Source: an uncultured Methanobrevibacter sp. (GTDB lineage Archaea; Methanobacteriota; Methanobacteria; Methanobacteriales; Methanobacteriaceae). Taken from it: a DNA stretch of 64,000 nt. The translations under genes and the position numbers were made by a program. The stretch lies in assembly GCF_946408925.1 (NCBI RefSeq), contig NZ_CAMJUE010000001.1:1-64000 (forward strand), read 5' to 3'. This document shows positions 50,125 to 54,598 of this stretch, one piece after another. The notes under the pieces were generated by a model, which was given only the letters and a program-made list of their open reading frames with translations, made no database searches and had not been told where the DNA came from. Within the stretch, counting starts at the first letter, position 1, and each line of letters opens with the position of its first letter.

Positions 50125-50829
50125 TTATGCGATATCTGCTGAATTTATGGTATTTTCAATAGCTTCAGAATTAATGGAATTTTCAGAAGTTCCAGTTATT
50201 TTAAAGACATATAATTGTCCATCACTAAACATTGAAACATATCTTGTATAATCTCCATTAGCATTTCCAAAAATCATGTTTGAAGCGTTTCTGCCATCTA
50301 AAGTTATTGTTTCGACAAGTTCAACATAATCGCCAGTTGTTTGAGCATAATCAATTCTTTGTTGAGTTATATCTTTTAATGATTTGGCATCACTAGTAAT
50401 GTTATAATACTCTATTGTTGTATTTTCTTCATTCTGGAAAAATATAGCTCCAGGATGTTGTTCATCAGTTCCATTCACTTGTTTCCAACTGCTTGGATAT
50501 TTGAATGAAAAATTGTTTGCTTTAAACTCATGTAACTCATTTGATTGAATTACGGGATTTGAGTTGTAGCTATTATTTGATCCTGTAAGTAGTATTCCGC
50601 AAATAACAATAAAAGTTATAGCTAATATTATTCCAATAAGTAATTTCTTTTCTTTCAGGATACTAATTGTATCTTTGTCATTGGAAGTTTTTTTAACTTC
50701 AGGCTCTTTTTTAAAGATATCCTCTTTTTTAGGAGCCGCAACTTTTGCTTTTGGGAATTTATAACCACAATTTCCACAAATAGGAGCACCATCATAACTA
50801 GGATTTCCACATTCAGGACATTTTTTCAC
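50125..50829 (-). CDS. Zinc-ribbon membrane protein with PsbP-like domain
   Basis: The protein has 234 aa. The N-terminal zinc ribbon (CPECGNPSYDGAPICGNCGYKF) is cytoplasmic. One transmembrane helix follows at about residue 70 (LLIGIILAITFIVICGILL). The C-terminal domain (FKANNFSFKYPSSWKQV, VELVETITLDGRNASNMIF) fits PsbP/DUF1795-like domains, probably outside the membrane. This layout is common in Methanobrevibacter; function unknown. A GGAGG ribosome binding site precedes the start. Confidence 0.7.
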   Translation of the reverse strand: MKKCPECGNPSYDGAPICGNCGYKFPKAKVAAPKKEDIFKKEPEVKKTSNDKDTISILKEKKLLIGIILAITFIVICGILLTGSNNSYNSNPVIQSNELHEFKANNFSFKYPSSWKQVNGTDEQHPGAIFFQNEENTTIEYYNITSDAKSLKDITQQRIDYAQTTGDYVELVETITLDGRNASNMIFGNANGDYTRYVSMFSDGQLYVFKITGTSENSINSEAIENTINSADIA

Positions 50830-52157: not shown

Positions 52158-52278
52158 CACAATAACATTGTTTAGATTAATTTAAATAATTTGTTTTTGA
52201 TATCAATAAATAAGATTCAATGGGGGAATTTAAATTTACGATGATGAATATTTTGAAAATAAAAACGAAAATTATCAA

Positions 52279-53223
52279 TTGGATTCATTTGAATTTGAAA
52301 ATGGTGAAGTTTTAAGAGATGTAAATGTCGAATACATGACTTTTGGAACTCCGATTTATGATGAAGACGGTTCAATAACTAATGCAATCATTTATTGTTC
52401 AGGTTCTCTAGGTAATTATTCCGGAGTGAAAAAATTGGCGCCTTTGGTGGGTAAAGGTGATGTTTTTGATGAGAATAAATACTTTTTCATATCTCTAACT
52501 GCATTAGGATCTCCAAATTCATGTTCTCCTTCAACAACCGGTTTAAAAAATAAATTCCCTAAATATTCAATTTTGGATGTTGTTAATTTTCAAAAAAAAT
52601 TTTTAAAAGAAAAATTCCGCATTGACCATGTCTTGGGCATAATCGGTAATTCAATGGGCGGTTTTGTTGCTTTAACTGCAGCTATTTATTATCCGGATTA
52701 TGCAGATTTCATAATGCCTGGTGTAAGTAGTTATAAAGTGGCGGGACATGATTATATCCTTTCCAAATTTGTTGATGAAATCATAACTTCCGATCCGGAT
52801 TATGCAAAAGGTGAAATGACATATTCATTAATCAGAACTTTAAGATTGGCAAATCTGGCTGAATTTAATTTTGGACTTTCTAAAGAAGCTTTAAGAAAAA
52901 TGTCTAATGAAGAGTTGTCAGCTGAATTGGAAAACTTCGGAAATGAAATGTTGGAAATTGATATTTATGATTTAAAATATTGCAATAAATCCTGTATGAA
53001 TTTCAATGTTGAAAATGAGCTGGACAAAATCAAATCAAAGGTTTTAATCATTTCATGTAAACAGGATCCTCATTTTCCACCGGAACTTGATGGCATTCCG
53101 ATGTGTGAGATGATTGATGATGCTCAAATAATCATAATGGATTCGCAATTGGGGCATTTATGTTTCAATGAGCTTGAAAGCATTTCTGATGATTTGAACG
53201 AATTCATGGATAATTTCAGGTGA
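52279..53223 (+). CDS. MetX-like alpha/beta hydrolase, catalytic triad present
   Basis: The protein has at least 314 aa. The fold matches homoserine acetyltransferase (MetX)-like hydrolases: ALGSPNSCSPSTTG, LGIIGNSMGGFVALTAA with the nucleophile Ser, SCKQDPHFPPEL with the likely Asp, and LGHLCF with the His. TTG 52279 is the first normal start, but similarity with the paralogue at 53603 reaches further upstream, to an ATT at 52234 after GGGGGAATT. The true start is therefore open. The gene is followed after 4 bp by a 90-aa ORF and then by the degenerate paralogue. Substrate unknown. Confidence 0.75.
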   Translation: MDSFEFENGEVLRDVNVEYMTFGTPIYDEDGSITNAIIYCSGSLGNYSGVKKLAPLVGKGDVFDENKYFFISLTALGSPNSCSPSTTGLKNKFPKYSILDVVNFQKKFLKEKFRIDHVLGIIGNSMGGFVALTAAIYYPDYADFIMPGVSSYKVAGHDYILSKFVDEIITSDPDYAKGEMTYSLIRTLRLANLAEFNFGLSKEALRKMSNEELSAELENFGNEMLEIDIYDLKYCNKSCMNFNVENELDKIKSKVLIISCKQDPHFPPELDGIPMCEMIDDAQIIIMDSQLGHLCFNELESISDDLNEFMDNFR

Positions 53224-53227
53224 TTTG

Positions 53228-53500
53228 ATGATTGTAAAAATTACCAATTATGGGCAGGGTGATGAAAATTTTGTCGAATATCTTGTCTCTGACCTATCAC
53301 GGGAGCAAATAGCATTTTTAAATGAAAATCTGGTTGAAAAAACGGAAATTATAGAAAATAATCTTTTAATAACCATGTATTTTGCAGATGAATTATATCC
53401 ATTTCAAAGTGAGGTTGCAAAATTTCGACTGGATGATTTCATTTCAAGAGAGGAAATTGAAATGAATGTATTTTTATCGAGTTTTTTAGATGATATGTAA
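53228..53500 (+). CDS. 90-aa acidic protein between two MetX-like genes
   Basis: The protein begins MIVKITNYGQGDENFVEYLV and has no known motif. The ATG at 53228 has AGGTGAT upstream, partly inside the 3' end of the preceding hydrolase gene; the track's TTG is one codon earlier. The close coupling suggests a function linked with the MetX-like protein. It is acidic, soluble, and without cysteine or membrane segment. Confidence 0.6.
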   Translation: MIVKITNYGQGDENFVEYLVSDLSREQIAFLNENLVEKTEIIENNLLITMYFADELYPFQSEVAKFRLDDFISREEIEMNVFLSSFLDDM

Positions 53501-53602
53501 AATTTAGTTTTCTTTTTTGAAGTATTGTTTAATTTATTGGAAATTTTTATATATCTTGGTTGAGTTAATATTAATTATATAAGATTATCATAAGGGATGG
53601 TT

Positions 53603-54598
53603 ATGGTTAATAGAAATGATGCATTTCGGGGGTATGAGAAGTATACTATGAATCAATTTGAATTTGAGTCAGGTAGAATTCTTGAAAATGTTGTTGTGGA
53701 ATTTTCAGCAAAGGGAACACCGAAATATGATGATGAAGGTAATATCAATAATGCTATAATTTACTGCCATCCGTTTACGGGGAATTATACTTCATTAGGA
53801 GACATTTATAAACTTACTGCTGAAGGAAAACCATTTGATTTCAATGAATATTACTTTATCGCAATCACCAAGTTAGGATTTCCAGATTCCTGTTCTCCAT
53901 CCACCACTAATTTGAAACATCACTTCCCTAAATACAATATTAGAGACCGTGTTAATTTTATAAGACAATTTCTAAAGGAACGATTCGATTTGGATAGGGT
54001 GCACGGCATCATGGGTAAAGGATTAGGTGGTTATGAGGTATATACTTGGGCTTGTGAGTATCCGGATGAAATGGATTTCATAATGGCCATAGGGACATGT
54101 TTTAAAACAAACGGTTATCGTTATGTTATTTCAAAATGCATGGAAAGCATAATTGAATCCTCGGATGATTTTTACTCAGAAGTATATACTGATTCATTAT
54201 CCAGAATGATGGTTTCAGTTAACCGATTATTGTATTCAAATCATTTTTCTAAAAAATTATTCCAAAATATGACAAATGATGAAATTGATGTTTTAATGGA
54301 TGATTTTGTTGATGAAGGATTGTTCATTGACATTTATGATTTTAAATTAAATAATGATGCTATTTTGGATTATAATATTGAAAACAAATTGGGAGACATC
54401 AAAGCAGAAACATTGGTTGTTAGTTCAGATGCAGATATGTACTACACTCCGGAATTTGATGTCTTGCCTTTGGATGATTTGATTGAAAACTCTACTGTGA
54501 TAATGTTCAATGCAAATGATGAAGAAATAGATTATAATGACTGTTCCATTATAGAAGACGACATTGAAAATTTTTTAAATAAAATTAAAAATAAGTAG
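53603..54598 (+). CDS. Degenerate MetX-like paralogue lacking Ser and His of the triad
   Basis: The protein has about 331 aa and is similar throughout to the gene at 52279: FEFESGRILENVVVEF, KLGFPDSCSPSTTNLKHHFPKY, FDLDRVHGIMGKGLGGYEVY. The nucleophile elbow reads GKGLGG where the paralogue has GNSMGG, so the Ser is gone. The C-terminal LGHLCF is replaced by DEEIDYND, so the His is gone as well. The Asp-region (SSDADMYYTPEFD) stays. The frame is intact, which suggests a kept non-catalytic role. The ATG at 53603 is preferred (AAGGG upstream). Confidence 0.75.
   Translation: MVNRNDAFRGYEKYTMNQFEFESGRILENVVVEFSAKGTPKYDDEGNINNAIIYCHPFTGNYTSLGDIYKLTAEGKPFDFNEYYFIAITKLGFPDSCSPSTTNLKHHFPKYNIRDRVNFIRQFLKERFDLDRVHGIMGKGLGGYEVYTWACEYPDEMDFIMAIGTCFKTNGYRYVISKCMESIIESSDDFYSEVYTDSLSRMMVSVNRLLYSNHFSKKLFQNMTNDEIDVLMDDFVDEGLFIDIYDFKLNNDAILDYNIENKLGDIKAETLVVSSDADMYYTPEFDVLPLDDLIENSTVIMFNANDEEIDYNDCSIIEDDIENFLNKIKNK

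Follow-up and report, generated by a model that had tools for sequence, protein, structure and literature searches.

A putative AUU-initiated hydrolase gene and its retained, predicted pseudoenzyme paralogue in Methanobrevibacter

Introduction

Why would a genome keep an inactive copy of an enzyme directly beside the active one, and with what would such a copy work? We asked this of a locus in an uncultured Methanobrevibacter sp., in which a hydrolase gene (A), a small ORF (M) and a full-length paralogue of A that lacks catalytic residues (B) follow each other within the window (the whole stretch of 64,000 nucleotides that was analysed). A first-pass annotation, made from the DNA letters, had suggested a two-subunit enzyme with an accessory protein. 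The reading that we favour, with moderate confidence when taken as a whole, agrees with this in part: A would be a non-MetX enzyme of the homoserine-acetyltransferase (HAT) superfamily that forms an old coupled pair with M and starts at AUU, and B a pseudoenzyme born within the genus, whose likeliest partner is A or A's ligand. With its active parent next to it, and with birth, diversification and loss all traceable within a single genus of archaea, such a pseudoenzyme family would be a clean natural system for studying the function of dead paralogues.

Results

Layout of the locus

A, M and B all lie on the + strand and are flanked by a leftward nucS-like gene and a leftward nadA. The features of the locus are as follows.

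52234 to 53223, + strand: gene A, alpha/beta hydrolase of the HAT/MetX superfamily, triad Ser140-Asp278-His308 complete
53228 to 53500, + strand: gene M, 90-aa DUF5750 ORF, orthologue of MTH1821 (PDB 2KX2), translationally coupled to A
53597 to 54598, + strand: gene B, paralogue of A and predicted pseudoenzyme (Gly in place of the nucleophile Ser, Glu in place of the His)
52234 to 52236, + strand: putative ATT initiation codon of A, directly after an in-frame TAA, kept in 50/55 clade orthologues
52222 to 52226, + strand: Shine-Dalgarno motif of A, GGGGG here and GGAGG in most orthologues, 7 nt 5' of the ATT
53546 to 53553, + strand: TATA-box-like element TTTATATA 5' of B, found in 21/40 M-B gaps vs 4.3 in shuffles

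The genus set comprised 67 Methanobrevibacter genomes, in nearly all of which the A-M-B locus was inspected, and relatives of B's sequence were present in 67/67. Methanobrevibacter has a conserved gene order here, nit - x - x - nucS / A - M - (B)(B') / nadA - mscS - rnz. The arrangement whose conservation the first-pass annotation had named as a test is kept between nucS and nadA, with B not always present. PADLOC gave no match that would link the locus to a defence system.

A is an active-type hydrolase of the HAT superfamily and not MetX

The product of A carries a nucleophile elbow, GNSMGG (Ser codon 52651-52653), a catalytic Asp within KQDPHF (codon 53065-53067) and a His within LGHL (codon 53155-53157). 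The elbow and the histidine are as first described, and the full Ser-Asp-His triad was found in 63/63 full-length A copies of the genus set. A has the fold of MetX (homoserine O-acetyltransferase), belongs to the same broad sequence family and carries its triad residues in the same order, and MetX models are among its top NCBIfam matches. Nevertheless, A reaches only 97.8 bits on the MetX model TIGR01392 (cut-off 500) and 84.6 bits on PRK00175 (cut-off 331), B scoring lower still on MetX models, and A is therefore not MetX. A genuine and distinct MetX with CBS domains is encoded elsewhere in the same genome (locus L004; 527 bits against the cut-off of 331). The label "MetX-like" given to A thus holds at the level of the superfamily only.

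The closest solved relatives of A are HAT-family acetyltransferases and acetylesterases, the best being 5D6O, an acetylester hydrolase of C. glutamicum (E 1.7e-17). This and two other HAT-like acetylesterases (MekB, 5E4Y; esterase E22, 5JKF) share the HAT-like triad, although they are only distantly related to A. Kinship with HAT structures together with the Ser-Asp-His triad places A in the HAT superfamily, and we infer that it hydrolyses or transfers acyl groups. To our knowledge, none of these acetylesterases (5D6O, MekB, E22) has a dead paralogue and a DUF5750 neighbour. A possible functional hint comes from several other genera, where the gene immediately 5' of A encodes a small ferredoxin-like protein (L117, L118, L121, L123 and L126).

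M is the older partner of A

M belongs to Pfam DUF5750 (PF19024; 104.9 bits, gathering cut-off 27). Its structural model (pLDDT 90.5) has a single strong match, MTH1821 (2KX2), the solved DUF5750 structure (fold-search E 3e-28, with 44% identity), and M is its orthologue. The paper on that structure, going by its title, likens MTH1821 to an RNA polymerase alpha subunit (reference 53 in PMC4713090). A literature search for DUF5750 gave nothing, and the searches of papers turned up no coupling of MTH1821 to A.

Of the 152 genomes in the phylum set, 111 have DUF5750. At the loci inspected in other genera, all without B, its gene is immediately downstream of A or separated from A by one gene. A+M is thus an ancient pair across Methanobacteriales, to which B was added later within Methanobrevibacter. 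This rules out that M was born as an accessory together with B, and the small ORF, which had been taken for an accessory of the A/B pair, adjoins A in many genera where B does not occur. Its description as a coupled 90-aa ORF between the two paralogues fits for length and position, and for coupling to A, from which it is separated by 4 nt in the window and which it overlaps by 11 nt in 28/72 loci; it does not extend to B. Given this tight spacing and the TATA-like boxes before B (see below), we read the locus as an A-M unit beside a B with a promoter of its own, and not as a coupled three-gene complex. A+M would accordingly be an old pair, coupled at translation and confined to Methanobacteriales. 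In one genome (G053, L087:3283-3564), an unrelated small Cys-rich protein occupies the slot of M.

B has lost the catalytic residues but appears to keep the fold

B resembles A over its entire length (E 2e-76; 40% identity, the alignment covering residues 1-312 of the 314-aa query) and both frames are open, as the first reading had it. At the nucleophile elbow B has GKGLGG (Gly codon 54020-54022) and in the His column a Glu (codon 54524-54526), so that Ser and His are indeed both replaced in an intact, full-length ORF. Among the 71 full-length B copies of the genus set, neither a full triad nor the catalytic His was found (0/71 for each), and the possibility that triad-bearing orthologues would expose a merely local decay did not materialise. 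The nucleophile Ser is kept in about 9 divergent copies, and GKGLGG as such is not conserved in orthologues, contrary to expectation: the column is mostly Gly, within a loose GxGxGG/GEGxGG pattern. A third, dispersed B-type copy in the genome of the window (L035) also lacks the nucleophile Ser and the His.

The positions conserved in A and lost in B (Gly57, Ser140, Met141, Asp278, Phe281, Pro282, Ser304, Gly307 and His308) correspond to the triad and its sequence neighbours, while 36 positions are still common to both families. B has gained near-invariant residues of its own, Trp152 (100%) and Tyr198 (97%; numbering from the codon before the ATG). The predicted structure of B (pLDDT 87.8) has only HAT-family enzymes as its best PDB matches (among them 2VAT, E 1.7e-22), the sequence of B matches 5D6O (E 5.5e-12), and the predicted fold matches that of the HAT-like acetylesterases 5D6O, MekB and E22. 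B thus appears to be a pseudoenzyme that retains the HAT fold.

B probably arose within the genus and is under purifying selection

B forms a single clade with several subclades, with a tandem pair in some genomes, and the tree groups it with sequences of the genus (support 98/97). An origin of B only inside the clade with the AUU start (see below) was rejected (AU test, p 0.007); an origin in that clade plus the G002/G007 pair, putatively M. smithii-like, was not (p 0.39). The tree and the AU tests make an origin of B within the genus the most likely one, with a possible loss in the putatively M. smithii-like G002 and G007.

Among the closest pairs, with unsaturated dS, B had a dN/dS ratio of 0.09-0.23; overall the ratio was about 0.05-0.23, and elsewhere of order 0.1, many dS values above about 1.5 being saturated and indicating only strong constraint. 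For A the ratio was about 0.02-0.12, and B evolves faster than A. Catalytic residues are lost across the whole family, and the gene is under purifying selection, as in pseudoenzymes; and because B is one clade under such selection, it is best read as an old pseudoenzyme and not as a product of local decay, which the family-wide residue loss and the dN/dS values rule out. That B is simply a decaying pseudogene might be suggested by the genomes in which it is fragmented (L086), interrupted (L061) or absent from the locus (12 others); yet the frame is full-length and intact in most genomes and dN/dS is far below 1 in close pairs, which already contradicts decay, and we give this reading almost no weight. 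The intact frames, the dN/dS values and the conserved order support a dead paralogue retained beside an active one, as originally described. At least 13 genomes have no B or a broken one, and A can therefore do without it.

Strong purifying selection would also be expected if B were still catalytic, with its active site rearranged, and several acidic and aromatic B residues are conserved, in addition to the Ser of the 9 or so divergent copies. However, the catalytic column has no His in any of the 71 copies, the Asp column is largely lost and so is the pocket residue Gly57, making such an enzyme improbable.

B as a possible partner of A

B usually seems to have its own promoter: TATA-like boxes were found in 28/40 M-B gaps, against 7.8 in shuffles (maximum 14). 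Dispersed B copies adjoin unrelated genes (L103, L104, L107-L114), often far from A, and in L103 and L110 the neighbour is a conserved fructose-bisphosphatase-like gene. This promoter, the dispersed copies, the B-specific invariant residues and the faster evolution of B would all suit an independent binding protein (a ligand sensor or scavenger) that was neofunctionalised and is no longer linked to A. This is a serious contender, to which we assign an appreciable but minor probability: in most species at least one B copy has stayed in the slot immediately after A-M, and many structural positions are still common to A and B.

The pairing of B with A is plausible, and we propose the following scheme. 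A would be catalytically active, as a hydrolase or acyltransferase of the HAT alpha/beta superfamily. B would have come from a duplication of A within Methanobrevibacter, losing its His at the outset or close to it and, in most lineages, its Ser as well. B would since have been kept as a pseudoenzyme family with the same fold, new conserved residues and its own promoter, subject to more copying and repeated loss. Its likeliest role would be that of a non-catalytic partner that binds A (as a heterodimer) or A's ligand and adjusts the activity of A.

A probably starts at AUU

The frame of A opens TAA-ATT-TAC, and no ATG, GTG or TTG is found before TTG 52279, where the automatic ORF caller begins. 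The coordinate 52234 given at first for A coincides with the start proposed here; the codon at this place is ATT, behind an in-frame TAA. In 55 same-clade A orthologues, the start position is occupied by ATT (50), ATG (3), ATC (1) or GTG (1), and a GGAGG-like motif (4-5/5 matches) lies at a spacing of 7-8 in 50/55. Codons 2-14 vary mostly in the third base, as coding sequence does, and elsewhere in the A genes ATT makes up only 55% of Ile codons (769/1389). Tyr at codon 2 is always TAC (28/28), in contrast to codon 6, where it is TAT in 36/41; since a TAT followed by the GAT that is usual there would place an ATG in another frame, a competing start appears to be avoided. Neighbouring genes, taken as controls, start normally (M with ATG in 53/55; nucS in 57/57; nadA in 49/50). 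The single-contig complete genomes G004 (locus L039) and G008 (locus L043) also carry the ATT, so that an artefact of metagenome assembly is ruled out. In early-branching congeners that lack B, and in other genera, the N-terminus of A differs, several of these having an ATG near this position. A 5' frameshift in A (ATG 52220, 'MGEFKF', plus one missing base) was considered and ruled out: this ATG is absent in relatives, in which the AUU and the Shine-Dalgarno motif are conserved.

Could A start downstream at codon 16, the AUU being by accident a conserved Ile codon or RNA motif? Codon 16 is ATG in 41/55 orthologues (TTG in the window), and annotation programs would pick ATG, GTG or TTG. This alternative is nonetheless quite unlikely, as the Shine-Dalgarno motif sits 7-8 nt 5' of the AUU and codon 16 is a non-start (TTA, CTA or CTT) in 8/55; in addition, codons 2-14 show coding-like third-base variation, and ATG (3) and GTG (1) replace the AUU exactly at its position. 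Initiation of A at AUU, behind a strong Shine-Dalgarno motif, is thus the reading to which the comparison points.

AUU starts are described in bacteria for E. coli infC and pcnB and for Staphylococcus cvfC1, the latter being conserved in its genus and having a strong extended Shine-Dalgarno (PMC1780047, PMC13009471). A shares the AUU with all three, and with cvfC1 also a strong Shine-Dalgarno and conservation among relatives; unlike these bacterial genes, A is an archaeal gene of metabolic type with AUU in 50/55 genomes of its clade. An archaeal precedent for an AUU or ACG start was not found in the literature searched, of which coverage was partial, and within this scope the apparent AUU start of A is an oddity. 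It would probably keep A output low or dependent on initiation stringency, a regulatory role that we propose.

Other non-AUG starts

In 400 kb of the complete genome G004, ATT stood behind a perfect Shine-Dalgarno 3 times, no more often than several non-start codons, and so we make no general claim on ATT starts. Two of the three candidates led to TFB and to a membrane protein. In 30 congener orthologues of TFB (L235-L264; L246 in the genome of the window), AAGGAGG or a close variant is followed by ACG 8 nt after the GGAGG; the contexts of L235 and L259 were read by eye, both being mislabelled in the automatic column. TFB of G004 has ATT at the ACG position, and 17/30 orthologues have no in-frame canonical start (ATG, GTG or TTG) before the zinc ribbon. 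These alignments suggest that TFB starts at ACG (ATT in G004), which is complicated by a conserved overlapping mini-ORF (MKPRHKK-stop, 7-12 codons) that begins inside the Shine-Dalgarno region and would allow a frameshift instead. In several congeners (L229:11085, L266-L269, L271, L272), the apparent start region of the membrane protein gene reads GGAGG-GATTTT-ATT-TCN, or nearly so, making it a candidate for an AUU start.

It is conceivable, though we rate it as rather doubtful, that near-cognate starts (AUU, ACG) behind strong Shine-Dalgarno motifs are a conserved expression device on a few Methanobrevibacter genes (TFB, the membrane protein and A). If so, A output would be tied to initiation fidelity at the level of translation and to the pseudoenzyme B at the level of protein. 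The conserved AUU of A and the putative ACG of TFB suggest that archaea may use poor start codons as control points, like bacteria with infC. With such starts, automatic annotation would give truncated versions of the genes concerned in many methanogens of the gut, a point of importance for studies of the archaea that produce methane in the rumen.

Some B copies (L113, L088 and several of the GEGxGG type) have no N-terminal ATG, and show GGAGG followed by ATT. A zinc-ribbon protein gene in the window (50125-50829, - strand) has a conserved non-AUG start as well, GTG in 54/54 orthologues, with a perfect GGAGG at the right spacing.
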